Shown in pieces: positions 1 through 33,037 of a stretch of 44,001 nucleotides of DNA (position 1 is its first letter; each line of letters starts with the position of its first letter). Source of the DNA: a virus. The stretch is taken from positions 1 to 44,001 of IMG/VR virus record IMGVR_UViG_3300023082_000017; one strand, 5' to 3'. The notes beneath the pieces were generated by a model. The model was not told the DNA's origin and ran no database searches. It was given only the letters and a program-made list of their open reading frames with translations. The translations under genes were made by a program, and so were the position numbers.

Positions 1-268
1 CGGCCCAACCTCTTAGACGTTGGGGGGCAAGGGATCGTGTGTCCCAACCTGTCGCGCGAGGGGTTGGGCCGGTTGGGCCACCGCCCGAACCTGAATGGAA
101 TTCACGAGGAATTAACAATCCGTTCAGATTCGAAAGGGTCCTCCCCGACCTTGGCCCATTGCGGGTTCCCGGCGCGCGATCTTGCTCCACATTCACTCAC
201 TGAACTTTGGTTCATCGCCACCCGCCTGAGTTCACCCGGGCGGTTCAGTCGTGACGGGAAGGTGCTGC
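1..268. other. Upstream region of the terminase genes
   Basis: No convincing gene lies here. Bases 15-140 repeat the last 126 bases of the window. Bases 1-26 match 43738-43763, so the left edge looks like a shortened form of the repeat region at the right end. GTCCCAACC and GGTTGGGCC repeats continue to about base 80. A direct repeat GGAATT lies at 97-102 and 108-113. An inverted repeat TGAAC-tttg-GTTCA lies at 201-214 and could be a regulatory site for the terminase genes. Bases 141-200 show nothing recognisable. A ribosome binding site (GGAAGG, about 257-262) precedes the ATG at 269. An 80-codon reading frame at 37-276 has no recognisable features and runs through the repeats. Confidence 0.55.
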
Positions 269-850
269 ATGTCTGAGATGACGCAGAAGCAGTACGCCCT
301 GGCGCGCGGCGTGTCCGAATCCTACGTAAGCAAGCTCAAGCGCCAAGGCCGCATGGTGTTCACGGCGTCGGGAATGGTCAACGTCGAGGCGACCGATCGC
401 CTGGTCGCAAACACTGCGGACCCAGCTCGTGGCGGCGACCGCACGGCTGGCGCGAGCCCAGCTGACGCCGGGGCGGCCGAACCGCAGGCTGGCGCGGCGA
501 GCGCTTCGCGGGCCTCCGGCAAGGCCGGCCTTGAGCAGGACGCAGGCTACCGCACCGCCGCCACGCGCGAGCGGCTTGCCAAGGCCCGCATCGCGGAGCT
601 CGAGCTCGCTGAACTAGCGGGCGCACTGGTGCGTCGTGACGATGTCGAGCGCCTTGTCTTCGCGCTAGCGCGCATGGCTATGGACAAGATGCTCGCCATC
701 CCCGAACGACTGGGCGGCCAGCTTGCCGTCGAGACGGATGTGGCGCAGTGCGAGAAGCTGCTCGAAGGTGAGTTGCGCGCCGCGTGCGAGGCTATGACGC
801 GCGTCGACCAGCTGCTCGCGCTGGAAGATGAGCAGGCTGACGCCGCATGA
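269..850 (+). CDS. terS: Terminase small subunit (Nu1-like)
   Basis: DNA-recognition subunit of the packaging motor; it should bind the packaging start site and recruit the large subunit. The 193-residue product opens with a helix-turn-helix-like segment (QYALARGVSESYVSKLKRQG, about residues 6-25), as in Nu1-like proteins. An Ala/Gly-rich linker and a helical C-terminal half with many Arg, Glu and Leu follow, suited to oligomerisation. The gene overlaps the large subunit by 4 bases (ATGA). The ATG at 269 is preferred over the GTG at 251 because GGAAGG lies about 6 bases upstream of it and the product then begins MSEMTQKQYA. The role is inferred from position and the HTH; small terminases are poorly conserved. 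Confidence 0.8.
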   Translation: MSEMTQKQYALARGVSESYVSKLKRQGRMVFTASGMVNVEATDRLVANTADPARGGDRTAGASPADAGAAEPQAGAASASRASGKAGLEQDAGYRTAATRERLAKARIAELELAELAGALVRRDDVERLVFALARMAMDKMLAIPERLGGQLAVETDVAQCEKLLEGELRAACEAMTRVDQLLALEDEQADAA

Positions 851-2847
851 ATGCCGCGCTAGCGATTCCCCACGACGTGACCCTGGCCGATGGCGGGTTC
901 GTTGCTGCGGCCGCGTGGAAGCGCGGTTTCACGCCGCCCCCGATCCTCACGCTGAGCCAGTGGGCGGACGAGCATCGAGTGCTGCCGCAGGAGGGTGCCA
1001 AGGAATACGGCAAATGGCGCACCAGTCGTACGCCTTACCTTCGCCAGATCATGGATGACCTGTCAGTGCATTCGCCGTACACGGAGGTGAGCTTCCTGAA
1101 GTCCACGCAGGTGGGCGGGACGGAGGTGTGCATTAACCTCCTCTCCTACGTGATCGAGCACGCGCCGGGTCCGTTGATGTATGTCCTGCCCACCCTGGAC
1201 ATCGCCCGCAAGTTCAGTAGCCAGCGCCTGCAGCCCGCGTTCGACCTCATGGCCTCAGTTCGTCGCAAGCTCGGCGCCCAGCGCCGGCGAGACGGCGGCA
1301 ACAGCACCCTGACGAAGAAATTCATGGCTGGGTTCATGGTGCTGTCCGGCGCCAACAGCGCGAACTCGCTGGCGTCCATGCCCGTGCGATATCTGATTCT
1401 CGATGAGTCAGGGAAATATCCGCTCGACCTTGACGACCAGGGTACCGCGCAGGAGCAGGCCGAGCGCCGCACCTCGAGCTACACCCGCCGCAAGAAAATC
1501 GCTCGCGTGTCGTCCCCAACGATCGAGGACGCATGCCCCATCAGTGCCGACTACGAACGCGGTCACCAAGCCTGCTACCACGTGCCATGTCCGTACTGTC
1601 AGCAGCTGCAAGAGCTCGTTCCGGAACAGCTCACTGACGATGGCCAGTTTCTGTGCATCCACTGCGGCGAGCTGATCGATGAGAGTCACAAGGCCTGGAT
1701 GCTGCGCGAACGGGGGCACAGCGAGGACGGGCTGGCCGAATGGATCGCCAAGCATCCTGAGCGGCAGGCGCGGAGCTACCGTCTGTGGGCCGCCTATGCC
1801 GCGCCAGGCCTTGGCTACACCTGGGTCGAGATCGCGCAAATGCGCCGGGACGTGAAAGACCATCCCGAAAAAGAGGTCGCCTTCGTCAACACGATTCTCG
1901 GGCGTGCCTACCAGGGCGCAAGCGAACAGGCGGTAGCCAAGGAAATTGCCGAGCGCGCCGGCGGGTGGAAGCGGCGGATGCTTCCGCCTGGGTGTCTGAT
2001 TCTGACCGGCTTCGTGGACGTGCAGGCGAATCGCTTCTCCTGCGGTGTCTGGGGCTGGGGGAGTGGCGATCGCTGCTGGGCGATCGACTGGGTGGAGCTG
2101 CCTGGCGATCCGACGCGCAAGCAGGATTGGCAGCAGGTCGAGGACTACTTCGCGCAACCCATCATCAACAGCTTCGGTGTGCCTGTCACCGTGAGGCTGA
2201 TCGGTGTCGACAGCGGCAACTGGAAGAACGACGTGTACAACTTCGTGCGTCCTCGCCAAGGTAAGGGTTTCGTCGCGACGAAGGGCATGAGCAAACAGGA
2301 TGCGCCCGTTATCTCGCGCCCCGCGAAAGACGACGGAAACACGCGCGGCCAAGCCGACCGAAAGGGAATCCGTCGCTACAACCTCGGCGTGCATGCGATC
2401 AAGACCACGCTGATGCGTCGCCTGATCAAGGACGGCGAGCTCGCGGTGGAGCAACGCCGATTCAACTTCCCGGCCGACCACGACGAGGTGTTTTATGAGC
2501 AGCTCACCGCCGAGCGCCTCGACCTGACCATCAACCGATGGATCTGCCCCAAGAGTAAGCGCAACGAGGTCCTGGACATCCTTGTGGGTGCCTATGCCAT
2601 GGCGTGTTCGCCGACCGTGCGCCTGCATGTGATGCGAGATGCTGACTGGATGGCGCTCGAGGCGAGGGTCGAGCCAGGTACAGCCGACCTGTGGTCGGTG
2701 GCTGCCACTGCACCGCCGCCGGCGGCGGTGGAGGCCACTGAGGCGCCAACGCCAGTGGCCGCCGCCCCACAGCCGTCTCCGCCGCGTGCGCCGGCGACAC
2801 CAGCACGTAATCCTTTCGCATCCTCCGACTGGACGAGCCGCCGATGA
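847..2847 (+). CDS. terL: Terminase large subunit (lambda gpA family)
   Basis: ATP-driven DNA translocase and nuclease that packages DNA into the prohead. The 666-residue length is near that of lambda gpA (641). Visible parts are a Walker A-like segment KSTQVGGTE at residues 85-93, Walker B LILDES at 183-188, and a gpA-type zinc site CPYC...CIHC at 248-273. A C-terminal nuclease domain has acidic residues in GFVDVQ (D391) and LIGVDSG (D455). The last ~50 residues are a Pro/Ala-rich tail. gpA-type enzymes commonly cut at cos sites, so cos ends are plausible, but no cos site was identified. The gene overlaps its neighbours by 4 bases on each side, consistent with coupled translation. Confidence 0.96.
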   Translation: MNAALAIPHDVTLADGGFVAAAAWKRGFTPPPILTLSQWADEHRVLPQEGAKEYGKWRTSRTPYLRQIMDDLSVHSPYTEVSFLKSTQVGGTEVCINLLSYVIEHAPGPLMYVLPTLDIARKFSSQRLQPAFDLMASVRRKLGAQRRRDGGNSTLTKKFMAGFMVLSGANSANSLASMPVRYLILDESGKYPLDLDDQGTAQEQAERRTSSYTRRKKIARVSSPTIEDACPISADYERGHQACYHVPCPYCQQLQELVPEQLTDDGQFLCIHCGELIDESHKAWMLRERGHSEDGLAEWIAKHPERQARSYRLWAAYAAPGLGYTWVEIAQMRRDVKDHPEKEVAFVNTILGRAYQGASEQAVAKEIAERAGGWKRRMLPPGCLILTGFVDVQANRFSCGVWGWGSGDRCWAIDWVELPGDPTRKQDWQQVEDYFAQPIINSFGVPVTVRLIGVDSGNWKNDVYNFVRPRQGKGFVATKGMSKQDAPVISRPAKDDGNTRGQADRKGIRRYNLGVHAIKTTLMRRLIKDGELAVEQRRFNFPADHDEVFYEQLTAERLDLTINRWICPKSKRNEVLDILVGAYAMACSPTVRLHVMRDADWMALEARVEPGTADLWSVAATAPPPAAVEATEAPTPVAAAPQPSPPRAPATPARNPFASSDWTSRR

Positions 2848-3188
2848 ATAACCCGAGGTTAGCTGCATGCGTGCACGGCGCACCCGACGTCGACGCCATC
2901 GAACCCGCCAAGGCCCTGCTGGACGAACTGACGGTGGCGCTGGCGGAGGCACGGGGTATTCCTCATGAAGAGGCATTGCAATACGTGGCGCCTATCGTCA
3001 GGCACCTGCAGCAACAGTACGGCGGCGACGAGGTCTACATCCCGCGACCTGGCCGGTCCCACCCGGTGGCTGACATCATTGCGGCGCGGCGAAGGGGGGA
3101 CGATATACGCGCCATCTGCATCCGGTACAGCATCAGCCGGCGTACGTTTTACAACCTCATGCAGGCGCACGGTCACTACGTCGCCTGA
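2844..3188 (+). CDS. Mor/C-family transcription activator
   Basis: The 114-residue protein has the Mor/C layout: a helical dimerisation half (about residues 15-58), the GG-x-x-x-YIP strand motif (GGDEVYIP, 60-67), then a C-terminal helix-turn-helix (about 86-107, RGDDIRAICIRYSISRRTFY). In phage Mu, Mor activates the middle promoter and its relative C activates late promoters, binding dyad sites that overlap poor -35 regions. Here the gene overlaps terL by 4 bases and ends 2 bases before a 27-bp palindromic promoter element (3191-3217) that recurs at 21834-21860. I infer that it activates those two promoters. It could instead be a minor regulator or packaging accessory. Family assignment is fairly sure; targets are unproven. 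Confidence 0.75.
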   Translation: MNNPRLAACVHGAPDVDAIEPAKALLDELTVALAEARGIPHEEALQYVAPIVRHLQQQYGGDEVYIPRPGRSHPVADIIAARRRGDDIRAICIRYSISRRTFYNLMQAHGHYVA

Positions 3189-3190
3189 GC

Positions 3191-3240
3191 GTGCAGGGTT
3201 TCCGGGAAACATTGCACGCTGAATCCGTGATCGTGGTGGC
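3191..3240 (+). promoter_or_regulatory. Palindromic late promoter 1, leaderless start
   Basis: Bases 3191-3217 form a 27-bp palindrome: outer arms GTGCA and TGCAC, inner arms GTTTCC and GGAAAC around a central G; only the 2-base spacers are unpaired. Exactly 23 bases separate it from the ATG at 3241. A possible -10, GATCGT (3229-3234), ends 6 bases before the ATG, so transcription would begin at the start codon, and no clear ribosome binding site is present. The expected -35 position lies inside the palindrome and does not resemble TTGACA, which suits an activator-dependent promoter. The element at 21834 matches at 23 of 27 positions with identical spacing. Confidence 0.65.
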
Positions 3241-3495
3241 ATGTCCAATGCCACCATCATGCGCGACCGATATCTCGCCGCCGAGCTCGCGATCCTTGAG
3301 GGTCAGAGCATCGACTTCGGCGGGCGTCGTCTCACCATGGCCGACCTCGACGAGGTCCGAAAAGGCCGGGCGGAGTGGGAGCGCCGCTGCAACGCCGAAG
3401 CGCGTGGTGGCAACGGTATGGCGCTCGCCAACTTCTCTGGTACTCCGTCGGGCGGCGAAGGTCGCGAGCGGCACGGCTGGAGTCGCGACCGATGA
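3241..3495 (+). CDS. gpW-like head-tail joining protein
   Basis: Small (84 residues) head-completion protein of the lambda gpW type, which joins the portal vertex to the tail and helps stop DNA leaking out. The N-terminal part has the family pattern: a helix (RDRYLAAELAILEGQS), a beta hairpin with FGGRRLTMADL, then a second helix (EVRKGRAEWERRC). The Gly-rich tail after residue 55 is longer than in lambda gpW (68 residues) and may be disordered. Its position between terminase and portal is as in lambda. It appears to be the first gene of the transcript from the palindromic promoter, with a leaderless ATG. Its stop overlaps the portal start by 4 bases. Confidence 0.85.
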   Translation: MSNATIMRDRYLAAELAILEGQSIDFGGRRLTMADLDEVRKGRAEWERRCNAEARGGNGMALANFSGTPSGGEGRERHGWSRDR

Positions 3496-21833: not shown

Positions 21834-21883
21834 GTGCAAGCTTTCCGGGAGAAATTGCACTCGGTAGCGGTGACGATCATCGA
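21834..21883 (+). promoter_or_regulatory. Palindromic late promoter 2, leaderless start
   Basis: Bases 21834-21860 are a second copy of the 27-bp element, identical to 3191-3217 at 23 of 27 positions, including the outer GTGCA and ATTGCAC ends and the shared core TTTCCGGGA. The distance to the start codon (ATG 21884) is again 23 bases. The possible -10, GACGAT (21872-21877), ends 6 bases before the ATG. No -35 consensus or ribosome binding site is seen. It would drive the lysis cassette, as a C-dependent promoter does in Mu. Confidence 0.65.
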
Positions 21884-22525
21884 ATGGTCACCGCCTCCAC
21901 TACGCCCGATCGTTTCCCGCTGTGCCTGCCGCTGACGCTCGCCTACGAGGGTGGCTGGGCAAACCATCCACTCGACCCTGGCAAGGCCACCATGCGTGGT
22001 GTGACGCAGGCGGTCTACGATGACTATCGGTCCATGCACGGGGTGGGGGTTCAGTCCGTAAGGCACATCAGCGACAGCGAACTCACTTCCATTTACCGTT
22101 GGCGATATTGGGATGCGATCCGCGCGGGATCGCTGCCTATCGGTGTCGATTACGCCATGTTCGACTTTGCTGTGAACAGCGGCGTACGGCGGTCGGTACT
22201 CGAGCTACAGGCAGTTCTGGACGTTCGTGCTGATGGCTCGATCGGGCCACTGACACTCGCCGCAGTCGCTTCATTCTGCCGCGGCCATGGCAACGCGTCG
22301 CTAAGCGATGCCGTCTGCGCGAGGCGCTTGCGTTTCATTCGCGGGCTTTCCACTTACGAGACATTCGGCCGAGGCTGGACGGCACGTATCGTCGGCTCGC
22401 GCTCCGGCAGCCAGGTGGACGATACCGGTGTGGCTGATCGCGCGCTGCGAATGATTGTCGGCGACGTTGCCACTGTGCCGGCAGCCCCGGCGAATACACC
22501 GAAGACGTTTGCTGCAGCGGCCTGA
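21884..22525 (+). CDS. Endolysin, glycoside hydrolase family 108
   Basis: Cell-wall lysozyme that should release progeny by cutting peptidoglycan glycan strands. The 213-residue protein begins with the GH108 signature: LTLAYEGGWANHPLDPGKATMRGVTQ, read in two parts, with the catalytic Glu22 in the EGG motif. The DYAMFDFAVNSGV segment and a C-terminal peptidoglycan-binding-type segment (LQAVLDVRADGSIGPLTLAAV) follow. No signal peptide or membrane segment is seen, so it needs a holin. First gene of the lysis cassette, leaderless start 23 bases after the palindromic element. Confidence 0.9.
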   Translation: MVTASTTPDRFPLCLPLTLAYEGGWANHPLDPGKATMRGVTQAVYDDYRSMHGVGVQSVRHISDSELTSIYRWRYWDAIRAGSLPIGVDYAMFDFAVNSGVRRSVLELQAVLDVRADGSIGPLTLAAVASFCRGHGNASLSDAVCARRLRFIRGLSTYETFGRGWTARIVGSRSGSQVDDTGVADRALRMIVGDVATVPAAPANTPKTFAAAA

Positions 22526-28967: not shown

Positions 28968-29897
28968 TCAGGACTCCTTGCCCGCTGGCGAAATCGTTAG
29001 GGGATGCCCGTAGGGCACACGGAAGCCCGAAGCATTGCGGTGGCCACCACCGCCGTATTGCGTAGCAACCTCGGCAACGTCCACGCCCTCGTCGCTGCTG
29101 CGCAAGCTGAACGTGCGGCCCTTTTCGGTGTCCCAGTAACAGGCGGCGAAGGGCTCTCCCTGGCACATCAAGTGGCCCGCATCGCTGGTGAGCGTGTAGG
29201 GCAGATTCGCCACCGGCACGTCGTAACCGCCGATTACGAGCCGCCGCTTTGTCACGCTCACAAGCTCCGCGACATCCTTGTGGTGCTTGCGCTCGATCGC
29301 GGCACCGTCATGGCGGAGAGCCTCCACCGCGGCGTCGTTCATCAGCAGGTCCCACACCGCGAAGTCATACGGGTAGCTGAAGAGCGCCGCCTGTACCTCG
29401 CGCGTGCCGGGAAGCTCAAACCGCCAAAGGTCGCGATCCTCGATGTGCTGCAGGAGTCGGGGCGGTTCGATGCCAGGGTTGAAGTGATCCCATGCCAGCC
29501 TGGCGCCGCTGCGGTCCATGTCGAAGCATGTGGCGACGTTAGGGCCGCCCTGCATGGTGGAATCGACCAGTGCGGCCTTCCAGTGCGCATTGAACGTGCC
29601 GTCGTCGGGAGCGTCGGTGCGAAACTGCGCGAATCGAGACAGCTCGTCCCGCGCAGACTTGTGATGGTCCAGCACGAGAACGCGGTGCGCTTTGCGTCCC
29701 ATGTCGCTGAGCACGTCATACGAGTAGCTGAAATCGACGATGATCACATCGCGCCCGGTTACATCCGGCGGCGGGTTGCCATGCGTGGCAGCGAAGCCTT
29801 CGAAGTTATCCACGCCGACGGCATTGCGCACGGCCCAGGCAGCGCCAAAGCCGTCGGCGCAGTTCGCGTGGTAAACGCATAGAATTGGCTTGTCCAT
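28968..29897 (-). CDS. DHH/DHHA1 family phosphoesterase
   Basis: Metal-dependent hydrolase of short phosphodiester substrates; relatives cut nanoRNA, pAp or cyclic di-AMP in the cytoplasm. The 309 residues contain the DHH motifs: YHANCADGFGAA (Asp15), IIVDFSY (Asp55), LDHHKSA (77-79) and an EDRDLW segment (153-158). They end with the DHHA1 substrate-binding motif GGGGHRNASGF (282-292). All expected metal ligands appear present, so it should be active. The ATG at 29897 has GGAG about 5 bases upstream; an alternative ATG at 29987 overlaps the methylase stop (ATGA) and cannot be excluded. The substrate cannot be told from sequence. Confidence 0.88.
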   Translation of the reverse strand: MDKPILCVYHANCADGFGAAWAVRNAVGVDNFEGFAATHGNPPPDVTGRDVIIVDFSYSYDVLSDMGRKAHRVLVLDHHKSARDELSRFAQFRTDAPDDGTFNAHWKAALVDSTMQGGPNVATCFDMDRSGARLAWDHFNPGIEPPRLLQHIEDRDLWRFELPGTREVQAALFSYPYDFAVWDLLMNDAAVEALRHDGAAIERKHHKDVAELVSVTKRRLVIGGYDVPVANLPYTLTSDAGHLMCQGEPFAACYWDTEKGRTFSLRSSDEGVDVAEVATQYGGGGHRNASGFRVPYGHPLTISPAGKES

Positions 29898-29983
29898 CAT
29901 CACTCCCGAATCCGGTTTCTGTGTGTGCGAGTGCTTTTCAGCCTCACTGCGCAAAGGGTGTTTTATGTGGTGAGGAGGGGTGA

Positions 29984-30820
29984 TCATGCGATCAACCTCT
30001 TCTGCTGCTGTCCGTCGAATGCGGCCTCATTGAGCCACAAGCTTTCGACTCGCTCCCGCGCACCATCGGCATGCGCGCTTCGGTCGATACGGTGCCATCC
30101 CTGATAGAGACTCTCGTAAAGGCTCGACGGATAGCCGGACAACACGACCATGCCCCGAAGTCCACGCAATCCGCTGGCCAGCGCTTCGTGCATTTCGTCG
30201 GTCAGTTCGTGCTTGTAGGACTTGCGGGCGAGGTCGTGGTTGACCTTCACCGAGCGTGTGGAATGCACATATGGGGGGTCGACGTAATGGAGTGTTTCGC
30301 TGCTGTCCTGGTGAACCATGACCGCCATGGCATCACGCTGCTCGATCACCACGCCCCGTAGGCGCTCGACCAGTGCTTCTGTTGCGCCCGCGTAATTCGC
30401 CCAGTCGTGCGCCGGCGTGGTACCGGATCGGTTGCTGTTCGCGCGGAAGCCAGACAGCTCGCCGCAAGCGGCGGCTGATCCGAAGCCTTGGAAGCTACGA
30501 AGGATGGTGCGCCGGGCCTGCTCGATGGGATCATCTGACGGCAGATATGCGCCGGCGAATTCCTCCCGACTGAACGGCGTCAGGCGAATAGCCTCGCGTA
30601 TCTCCGGGCCGTGATCGCGCATCACGCGGAACACGTTGACGATCTCGCCGTCCAGGTCGTTATAGATTTCGGCGTAACTGCGTGGCTTGCGGAGAAGCAC
30701 AGAGGCGCCGCCGCCGAACGGCTCGACATAGGTACGGTGCGGCGGAAGATGTCCGATGATCCACGGGGCAAGCTTCCACTTGCCACCGTGGTAGCGAACC
30801 ATTGGGCGGGTCGGTGTCAT
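29984..30820 (-). CDS. DNA adenine methylase (D12/Dam class)
   Basis: N6-adenine DNA methyltransferase of 278 residues. The SAM-binding motif VEPFGGGAS (35-38 FGGG) and the catalytic DPPY (181-184) are intact. The early YHGGKWKLAPWI segment is typical of the family and the region between the motifs carries the target recognition part. No restriction enzyme gene is nearby, so this is a solitary methylase that may protect phage DNA from host restriction or act in regulation. The recognised sequence is unknown. Overlaps the cytosine methylase stop by 4 bases. Confidence 0.93.
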   Translation of the reverse strand: MTPTRPMVRYHGGKWKLAPWIIGHLPPHRTYVEPFGGGASVLLRKPRSYAEIYNDLDGEIVNVFRVMRDHGPEIREAIRLTPFSREEFAGAYLPSDDPIEQARRTILRSFQGFGSAAACGELSGFRANSNRSGTTPAHDWANYAGATEALVERLRGVVIEQRDAMAVMVHQDSSETLHYVDPPYVHSTRSVKVNHDLARKSYKHELTDEMHEALASGLRGLRGMVVLSGYPSSLYESLYQGWHRIDRSAHADGARERVESLWLNEAAFDGQQQKRLIA

Positions 30821-32847
30821 GCCGCCACCGCCAGGTCTTCCGGCAAGCGGTCGAGATTCTCTTCGGCGATCGCCCTCAGGGGCGGCGGGCTGACCGAGTT
30901 TCCCACCATGTGCACGCTCTTGCTGATGCTCAGCGGGCGGCCGTCTGCCGTGCGGTCGATGATGTAGCCGGCCGGGAAACCCTGCGCGCGGAACAGTTCC
31001 TCACGGCGGAGCATGCGCAGGCCGATATCGACGATGACGTATGGGCTGCCCTTCAGCCAGACCGTGACGAGTGCCAGGCGATCGCGAGTCGTAACAGTGT
31101 CCAACGGCTCCGCGATATCGACGCCGAGAGCCGTGCCGTAATATTTCACCAGGAACGCGGCAACACGCAGCGCGCCTTCCTCGTGCTCCGGACTGAGCGT
31201 GCATTCGACGACGGCATGGTGTTCGCCGCCGGCGCTGACGGTGGCAAGCGGATCCTGAGCGTCAGCGGCCGAACTGGTGCCACGAAGCTTCGCGAGGTTT
31301 ACCGCCGCGAGGCGCTGCTGGCTCCCGGTGCCGGTGATGGCTGACATGGGCGCATCGGCTGCGTTGCCGTCGCCATCATAGAAGCCGCCGTTAGCCTGCT
31401 CGAGGAAGGCGGACACCACGCCGTAGCGGGTCGCTCCGGCCAGCGCTGTCTGCATGGGCTCATCGACACCGGACCCCTTGGCATTCTGCCCGAAAGCGGT
31501 GAGGTGGGCCGTTGCCACGGCGTGCTTGACGCCCCCGGCCGGGGCCACGCCGAGGGGGGCCTCGATGTCGAGAGCGCGCGGCGCCTGCCCCTCGCGTTCA
31601 CCGTAGCCGGTCTGCACCAGCGTGGGGGCGCATACCGCGAAGTGCCCGCCCTTCACCTCGGCGCACATCGTGTTGAGCGGTGTCGTCACGGGCTTATTCG
31701 TGTCGACAGATGACTGAGCATGCTGGGCAACGAAGGGTGCGAGCGTCGGAACGGCCAGGCAGGCGTCGGCCTTCGACGTCGTCGTTGGGGCCGGCTCATT
31801 CACGGACCGCTCGGCCGTCTGGCCCATGCGTCCGCCCACGCCGACGATGAACGGCTCGGCGGCATCGATCACGTATCGCTTCACGCCCCGCGCAATGCGG
31901 CGCAGCGTGGCGTCGGCGAGGGGGCGCTTCACGCGGACCTTCCGCGCGTCTTCCTTCGACAGGAAGATCGACGGGCAGGGCACGGTGAAGTCGATGCAGT
32001 CGGCGGCCGTGACGAAAGGCTTAAGCCCGGCACCGGGACCATGGGACGGCTTCGGCCACACGATGGGCATGCCATCACGGCGGGCGACGAGGAACAGGCG
32101 CTTGCGGCTCGTGCCGGCGCCGTAGTCGCAGGCGGACAGCTTCCGCCACTCCACGGTGTAGCCCAGCGCGCGGAACGCGGCCACGAAGTGATCCCACGTC
32201 CGACCCGCATACCTCTTATCGGGAACGAGCGCCTGGTTCCAGACGGAAACCTGCTCTCCCTTATTTGCGACTCGCTCGACCATGACGACTTTGCCGCGAA
32301 AGCGAACGACTTCACCGGTCTGCGGGTCGAGCTTGGGGACCTTCTCAAGCGTGACGACGCGGCCCGTCGCTTTGTCGCGCTTCGCGATCAGCGGCCCCCA
32401 TTTCAGAATCTGTTCGACGTTCTCCAGGCTGATGATTCGCGGCGCTAGGCCGGCGCTCGCCAGCGTGCCTGCGACCTTCAGCACGACCCACGATAGGGAG
32501 CGCGTCGCCTTGCTGCGCGGCTGGCCGCCCTTGGCTTGGCTGAAATGCGTGCAGTCCGGGGAGGCGTGGAACCAGCCGACAGACCGGCCAGCTACCTCGC
32601 GGAGAATGTCCACCGTCCACACGTCGGCAGGCAGGTGGCGGGTGAACGGGTGATTCGCCGCGTGCATGCCGAGCGCATCAGGGTCGTGGTTTACAGCCAC
32701 GTCCGGATCGCGGCCAAGGGCCTGTTTCAGGGCCTCACTGGCGCCACCGCCACCTGCGAAGAAGTCCACTACGATCTCGCCCGGACGGAGCAGGGAAATT
32801 TTGGCCGCCGGGAAGTTGAAGCCAGATTGCGAGCCGCCGTCAGCCAT
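30817..32847 (-). CDS. DNA cytosine-5 methyltransferase with repeated insert
   Basis: A 676-residue C5 methylase. Motif I is VDFFAGGGGAS (28-35), the nucleophile motif IV is SPDCTHFS (Cys99), motif VI is LENV (141-144), a motif VIII-like GAGTSRKRLFLVAR lies near 243-256, and the C-terminal motifs X include MVGNSVSPP (648-656). Between ~349 and 595 lies a long region of about seven related units of ~25-45 residues, each opening with a (D/E/K)-x-P-(x)2-T pattern (EPAPTTT, KPVTTPL, APLGVA, EPMQTAL, APMSAIT, DPLATVS, EPLDTVT). Such an insert could hold several target-recognition elements. Likely protects phage DNA against host restriction. Confidence 0.93.
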   Translation of the reverse strand: MADGGSQSGFNFPAAKISLLRPGEIVVDFFAGGGGASEALKQALGRDPDVAVNHDPDALGMHAANHPFTRHLPADVWTVDILREVAGRSVGWFHASPDCTHFSQAKGGQPRSKATRSLSWVVLKVAGTLASAGLAPRIISLENVEQILKWGPLIAKRDKATGRVVTLEKVPKLDPQTGEVVRFRGKVVMVERVANKGEQVSVWNQALVPDKRYAGRTWDHFVAAFRALGYTVEWRKLSACDYGAGTSRKRLFLVARRDGMPIVWPKPSHGPGAGLKPFVTAADCIDFTVPCPSIFLSKEDARKVRVKRPLADATLRRIARGVKRYVIDAAEPFIVGVGGRMGQTAERSVNEPAPTTTSKADACLAVPTLAPFVAQHAQSSVDTNKPVTTPLNTMCAEVKGGHFAVCAPTLVQTGYGEREGQAPRALDIEAPLGVAPAGGVKHAVATAHLTAFGQNAKGSGVDEPMQTALAGATRYGVVSAFLEQANGGFYDGDGNAADAPMSAITGTGSQQRLAAVNLAKLRGTSSAADAQDPLATVSAGGEHHAVVECTLSPEHEEGALRVAAFLVKYYGTALGVDIAEPLDTVTTRDRLALVTVWLKGSPYVIVDIGLRMLRREELFRAQGFPAGYIIDRTADGRPLSISKSVHMVGNSVSPPPLRAIAEENLDRLPEDLAVAA

Positions 32848-33037
32848 TGAAGGTAGCCTCGGCACGTGCGACATCGACGACCCAGTTCGTGCCGTCGAAT
32901 GTGGCCTCCAGCGGGATAGGCTGAGTGTGGCCGAAGCACGCCGGTGCTTGGTAATAAGCCGGAAAACCCTGCGCCTCGCGAAGTTCGGAAGCGCTGAGCA
33001 CAGGTTGTTCAAAGTCAGAGCGGAGGTCGTTAACCAT
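32840..33037 (-). CDS. Small early-left protein upstream of the methylases
   Basis: A 65-residue protein beginning MVNDLRSDFEQPVLSASELR and ending in a short beta segment (FDGTNWVVDVARAEATF). Function unknown. ELREAQGFPAYY resembles the C-terminal EELFRAQGFPAGYII segment of the neighbouring C5 methylase (its residues ~616-630), so it may be a displaced fragment of such an enzyme. The overlap of 8 bases on each side supports translation. Confidence 0.55.
   Translation of the reverse strand: MVNDLRSDFEQPVLSASELREAQGFPAYYQAPACFGHTQPIPLEATFDGTNWVVDVARAEATFNG

Follow-up and report, generated by a model that had tools for sequence, protein, structure and literature searches.

A Mor-type protein encoded between terminase and gpW as the probable activator of putatively leaderless late promoters in lambda-like phages

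In the virus record IMGVR_UViG_3300023082_000017, of which the stretch from position 1 to 44,001 was analysed (hereafter the window), a small gene is placed between the large terminase subunit (TerL) and a gpW-like head-tail adaptor gene, and is followed directly by a 27-bp palindrome that recurs before the endolysin gene. The question raised by this locus is what the encoded protein does and whether the two palindromes are its sites. Our analysis, made by sequence comparison, suggests with a probability of about 0.8 that the gene at 2844-3188 encodes a late activator, that it is the last gene of the early/terminase operon and that its product would drive leaderless head, tail and lysis transcripts. 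The features concerned are the following.

251..850, + strand: terminase small subunit (TerS), PHROG 57, E 2.9e-29
847..2847, + strand: TerL, PHROG 15, E 2.5e-186
2844..3188, + strand: Mor/C-type activator gene, 114 aa, with GGDEVYIP at residues 60-67
residues 99-108 of the activator protein: predicted recognition helix, with Asn104 as the specificity position by comparison with relatives
3191..3217, strandless: dyad 1, GTGCA-N17-TGCAC, 27 bp, proposed activator site, at -50 to -24 counted with the A of the gpW start codon as +1
3229..3234, + strand: proposed -10 hexamer GATCGT, 11 nt past dyad 1, with A2 and T6 conserved across relatives
3241..3495, + strand: gpW-like head-tail adaptor gene, PHROG 118, E 3.6e-21, proposed leaderless start at 3241
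21834..21860, strandless: dyad 2, GTGCA-N17-TGCAC, 27 bp, proposed activator site, found as a pattern match
21872..21877, + strand: proposed -10 hexamer GACGAT, 11 nt past dyad 2, of the form nAnnnT
21884..22525, + strand: endolysin gene, PHROG 315, E 4.3e-38, proposed leaderless start at 21884

The stop codon of TerL, which we take to be of the lambda gpA type, overlaps the start codon of the activator gene (ATGA). Family searches also placed portal, protease/major head fusion, decoration and major tail genes in the window, along with a weakly matching spanin and genes for a CI-like repressor, a CII-like activator, a primase and a helicase, the last two lying at the opposite end of the linear record from the activator gene. 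The initial annotation had stated that no transposase is present. This agrees with our scan of 40 window ORFs (a subset of the ORFs) against PHROGs, in which a serine integrase gene was found (PHROG 95, E 3.1e-65; invertase PHROG 125) and no Mu-type transposase. On the minus strand, the region 28971-33012 carries a DHH phosphoesterase gene and two DNA methyltransferase genes consecutively.

Judged by profile, the window protein belongs with the Mor/C family, and it appears Mor/C-like by every comparison made. The Pfam Mor model (PF08765) scores 23.0 bits against it (E 8.5e-5), 1.9 bits short of the curated cut-off of 24.9, while PHROG families 836 and 532 (‘late transcriptional activator’) match with E values of 3.4e-5 and 5.6e-5. 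Alignment of the family profile to that of Mu Mor and C by hhalign gives a probability of 93.6% (E 2.1e-7) over 72 columns covering the YIP loop and the helix-turn-helix (HTH). Pfam Mor is matched at E<=0.01 by 14 of 20 aligned relatives, the window protein among them. When six relatives were scanned singly, L037 (49.6 bits) and L177 (55.3 bits) passed the cut-off and L022 (24.3), L011 (21.7) and L009 (16.9) fell below it; the sixth, gp5 of Stenotrophomonas phage S1, gave no match at E<=0.01. The AlphaFold monomer of the window protein (pLDDT 79.1, pTM 0.40) retrieves Mu Mor (1rr7) at rank 1 in Foldseek as a weak match (E 0.095). VIA comparison of the same predicted monomer gives a Z of 4.0 with 1rr7 (rmsd 10.3 over 86 residues) and of 4.6 with Mu C (9l0x; rmsd 8.7 over 88), most of the higher rows being HTH-only matches. 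For the Mor and C entries of Mu, 9l0y and 9l0x, our literature search gave no accompanying publication. The presence of a Mor/C-type protein with GGDEVYIP at 2844-3188, as first proposed, is borne out by the ORF and by the PHROG and Mu Mor and C profile matches, the Pfam match lying just under its cut-off.

Both palindromes are real as well, and they occur nowhere else in the window, since a pattern built from the two sites and allowed up to 3 mismatches finds only 3191-3217 and 21834-21860 (0.00 expected from shuffles). A scan blind to the arm sequence, which demanded inverted arms of 5 bp separated by 17 bp, A and T at their places in the -10, and an ATG 22-25 nt further on, on both strands, again returned only the two known sites from the 44-kb window. 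The same scan of 40 dinucleotide shuffles gave a mean of 0.275 and a maximum of 2 matches, and 0 when T11 and A17 of the core were also demanded. The distance from dyad to ATG is exactly 23 nt at both gpW and endolysin, and neither ATG is preceded by a Shine-Dalgarno core or a clear -35. With the A of ATG as +1, each dyad spans -50 to -24 (centre about -37) and the hexamer -12 to -7. As far as such spacing can tell, this is how a promoter would be laid out that depends on an activator and starts its transcript at the AUG. The position of the dyads on a proposed -10 and 5'-terminal AUG had been overlooked in the first reading.

The window protein alone, used as query, retrieved no relative from IMG/VR or from 50,697 phage records, and relatives were reached by way of a dyad pattern search followed by alignments. 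The dyad search led to IMGVR_UViG_3300015265_000208, which has sites before gpW and endolysin and a gene 54% identical to that of the window; the alignment search then yielded 30 IMG/VR loci and another in Rhodanobacter thiooxydans. Of the 21 virus records that encode a Mor-like gene, the window among them, 19 contain the general site pattern with at most 1 mismatch, and 0/21 contain a reversed control pattern; the two records in which it was not found, L033 and L038, are both fragments. Across the phages, the genes following the sites are gpW, neck/tail completion, head protease/major head and endolysin.

There is a second form of the site, GTGCCA...TGGCAC (class II), for which we scanned with no condition on -10 or ATG. 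The scan returned 48 stretches in 38 IMG/VR contigs, and the same pattern, sought in all collected loci except L004-L007, gave 30 distinct sites (distinct as 67-mers, some of them near copies). Base 2 of the -10 is A in 30/30 of these and base 6 is T in 29/30, and the ATG follows the dyad by 22 nt in one, 23 nt in 14 and 24 nt in 15. It had been proposed to test whether gene and palindrome co-occur across phages, palindromes in phages lacking the gene being the refuting outcome. For class II they largely do: by a tally made by hand, the gene is present in 27 of the 38 contigs, and 10 of the other 11 are fragments shorter than 11 kb. In the eleventh (G422, 36 kb), the gene next to TerL on its downstream side is a diverged Mor-like ORF (E 1.9e-5). 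This ORF (L167:15034-15429, and L168) carries YIA in place of YIP. The site at the endolysin of the same contig is of class II, and it may be that the lysis cassette travelled together with its promoter. For the GTGCA type the bare pattern occurs in 13 contigs, one of them 68 kb long, with no relative where searched. These contigs comprise L004-L007 and the nine loci L102-L110 (seven distinct sequences). Ten of the 13 records were searched, and no relative was found in them or in the L102-L110 loci. By eye, none of the 13 has an ATG 22-25 nt after the dyad. Because the ATG is not at the right distance, we set these matches aside as chance, which is a matter of judgement, and they do not enter our counts.

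A set of 47 promoters was assembled from the 30 class II sites and 8 class I sites, found regardless of the -10, together with 9 obtained by a filter demanding its A and T; arm pairing in this set is built into its selection. The core of the 27-bp dyad has T11 in 46/47 and A17 in 47/47 promoters, with variable neighbouring positions, and it is possible that T11 and A17 are contacted by the YIP loop or by sigma. The distance to the ATG ranges from 21 to 25 nt across the set: the ATG moves by a base or two while the -10 stays put relative to the dyad.

Distant Mor-like genes were found in 9 of 398 genomes of the order of Rhodanobacter, Rhodanobacter included, and own dyads with different arms. 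In seven bacterial regions of 35-40 kb around distant relatives, the strict layout adjoins the gene in five and is not found next to it in G087 and G228, the dyad of G228 being imperfect. A class-wide search found Mor-like genes in 5/369 genomes, and no layout was seen by eye in L176, L178 and L179 from this search. Two further scans yielded 92 loci, of which L191 and L269 were dropped for want of a stop codon, and the remaining 90 form 30 clusters at 80% identity. The full layout is present within -40 to +260 nt of the gene end in 20 of the 30 clusters, compared with 2 of 600 shuffled regions, in which mononucleotide shuffling kept base composition alone. A gpW-like ORF of 68-83 aa (so named, in the distant relatives, from reading ORF starts) begins at the ATG itself in 16 of the 20, and in three the ATG opens a minicistron directly before such an ORF. 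In the remaining cluster, L232, which was kept in the 20, the ATG scored at 21 nt belongs to another frame than the gpW-like ORF, whose start codon is a GTG at 23 nt. The strict layout fails in 10/30 clusters, most of which have imperfect arms on a relaxed look by eye; L207 (3 members) and L212 retain the dyad with gpW starting about 60 nt past it, and are perhaps a leadered variant of the same promoter, while no dyad was seen in L230 and L270 even on the relaxed look. Since the rows are related phages, which inflates counts, the numbers of loci overstate independence and the 30 clusters are the better measure.

One subclade (G270, G404, G274 and G412; loci L152-L153, L158-L159 and L162-L165) has an additional dyad, its arms similar to those of the promoter dyad, in the interval from the Mor-like gene to gpW. 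It is placed 72-74 bp upstream from the promoter dyad and has no -10 or ATG of its own. It is possible that this is the site of a second activator dimer or of a loop.

Phage S1 (NC_011589) is a named phage with a relative of this gene. Its genes for primase, a small protein, TerS, TerL and gp5 stand in a row, and gp5 (L173:5357-5677), annotated as ‘putative peptidase a’, is Mor-like. As in the window, TerL and gpW flank this relative of the activator, and a dyad, a -10 and an ATG come after it. Unlike in the window, the arms are longer, and the frame opened by the ATG is a minicistron, MISRMPH, with a stop that overlaps the start of gpW. The S1 clade differs from the rest in arm length and in the distance to the -10.

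Such minicistrons bear directly on where transcription might begin. In class II, the ATG opens only a minicistron of 10-19 codons in 8/30 sites, and in S1 and two further clusters (3/20) only one of 7-10 codons. The start of the next gene overlaps the minicistron stop in L064, L065, L069, L072, L073, L146 and S1, and follows it by one base in G137 and G228 (the sequence of L136 ends too soon to be read). As the ATG stays in place whatever gene follows, which is otherwise hard to explain, initiation at the 5' end is suggested. A 4-nt Shine-Dalgarno core is present before 0/38 targets, compared with 19/47 genes of S1, and together with the spacing this leads us to infer leaderless transcripts.

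The link between protein and site can be followed in the predicted recognition helix. Arg at helix position 7 (Asn104 in the window) is paired with C as the fifth base of the arm in 17 proteins, and N, W, Y, E or Q at this position with A in 14, with no exceptions among the 31 parsed of 32 proteins. On the tree, position 7 changes 3 times, at least 2 of the changes being forced by well-supported branches, compared with about 10.6 for shuffled labels. The pairing has not been inherited just once, because the tree forces at least two changes, although independent changes are few. For helix position 3, the arm has G where the protein has Arg (20), C where it has Ser or Ala (10), and T in the one case of Thr. 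This weaker rule is broken by L035, the unparsed 32nd protein (helix SRSTFYRA), which has Ser with G; its Arg at position 7 with a GTGCC site agrees with the position-7 rule. In this test the arm labels were entered by hand, the helix columns were left in the tree alignment, the register of L177, L236 and L268, which have imperfect arms, was set from the -10, the long branches of L037, L094 and L177 make their placement unsure, and the S1 clade with its other geometry was kept outside. As read from these alignments, the covariation is the trace that direct recognition of the arms would leave.

The same dyads could in principle serve other ends. That the promoters are real and Mor-dependent but start elsewhere, with a short leader, the fixed ATG spacing being mere compaction, we regard as unlikely, though it is the strongest of the alternatives: L207 and L212 retain the dyad at a distance from gpW, and the spacing does vary among the 47 promoters. 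However, the ATG lies at 22-24 nt in all 30 sites that were not selected for it, the Shine-Dalgarno core is absent from every target, and the ATG is kept there even when it opens only a minicistron. Slightly less probable still is a repressor or autoregulator that sits on the dyads and keeps the late promoters blocked until it is removed. The site does overlap the would-be -35 region, where occlusion would be possible. The best -35 match averages 2.68 of 6 over the 47 promoters, slightly above the 2.28 of shuffled sequences, with 4/47 reaching 4 of 6, and the -10 hexamers match TATAAT at only 2-3 of 6 positions, from which little unaided firing is expected. Mu Mor and C, moreover, are described as activators in PMC4390567, PMC4287176 and PMC4461284.

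An RNA hairpin in a read-through transcript, controlling translation of gpW and endolysin or termination, appears the least probable of all, in spite of complementary arms a short way ahead of the start codon. Between dyad and ATG the A and T of a -10 are retained, position 12 of the core is unpaired in 40/47 sites, the ATG shifts by a base or two with the -10 fixed, and base 5 of the arm tracks the recognition helix of the protein.

Activation by the Mor-type protein from both dyads remains our preferred reading. Gene, dyads, near-invariant spacing, -10 pattern, absence of a Shine-Dalgarno sequence, recurrence and arm/helix covariation are read from the sequences. Dimer, operon, binding, activation, transcription start and leaderless translation are what we infer from them. 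The early operon would read through the terminase genes into the activator gene, probably its last. The activator, presumably as a dimer, would then bind both 27-bp dyads at about -50 to -24. Each promoter combines a weak -10 (nAnnnT) with the lack of a clear -35, and the bound protein would recruit or activate the host RNA polymerase there. The transcripts of the head/tail operon and of the lysis operon would begin on the AUG of gpW and of endolysin, respectively, or no more than about two bases away from it, and both late mRNAs would therefore be leaderless. Depending on the phage, the late promoters opened in this way may be those of gpW, neck/tail completion, head protease/major head and endolysin.

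The initial interpretation, in which the protein acts on both palindromic promoters and connects terminase, structural and lysis expression, stands by comparison on three counts, namely a protein of the Mor/C type, dyads that most probably serve as its sites, and structural and lysis genes as targets. Its adoption of a Mu part by one phage gives way to a wide family with a fixed place in lambda-like phages, and a direction of transfer is supported neither way. It is likely that a widespread class of lambda-like phages runs its late programme via a Mor-type activator acting on a fixed unit of dyad, -10 and AUG, with leaderless head, tail and lysis mRNAs, with minicistrons of 7-19 codons at the 5' AUG that load ribosomes by coupling where the first real gene lies further on, and with a readable helix-to-base code.

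If true, this would identify the late-gene switch of many lambda-like phages in which the gene has gone unnoticed, as under the peptidase label in S1. Structural and lysis operons could then be expressed as leaderless mRNAs under one activator, the natural pairs of protein and site could be used for working out DNA recognition by Mor-type proteins, and leaderless initiation becomes testable on phage late genes. A literature search by title and the beginning of the abstract, with subscription papers and preprints outside its scope, brought up no description of leaderless late promoters under a Mor-type activator in lambda-like phages.

In Mu, C is made from the middle operon that Mor turns on. 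Unlike this succession from Mor to C, here there is one activator, encoded after TerL. The Mu Mor dimer, as described in PMC4390567 and PMC4287176, recognizes 5-bp repeats in a 16-bp element with a 6-bp spacer, centred at -43.5 and replacing the -35 at the middle promoter Pm. The two systems share a related protein and a dyad of 5-bp inverted arms in the place of the -35 of a promoter with a -10. However, the element is 27 bp long here, with a 17-bp spacer and a centre at about -37. This sets the two arms eleven bases, about one turn of the helix, farther from each other and leaves the upstream one close to its position in Mu. Also unlike Mu, the start codon lies at the proposed transcript start, and the genome is lambda-like with a serine integrase. 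Mu C is a late activator of several separate promoters (Plys, PI, PP and Pmom), lys included, according to PMC4461284, and the activator proposed here would resemble it in serving several separate late promoters including that of lysis. By eye, Mu lys has a Shine-Dalgarno-like AGGGA before its start. Leaderless phage mRNAs are known from lambda cI and from PY54 cI and cro, whose transcripts begin at the AUG (PMC4488713). The leaderless genes of lambda and PY54 described there are immunity genes, whereas here the head, tail and lysis operons of the proposed regulon of one activator would be concerned. Compared with Mu Mor and C, the layout of dyad, -10 and AUG, its spread, the helix-to-base code and the minicistrons are new.
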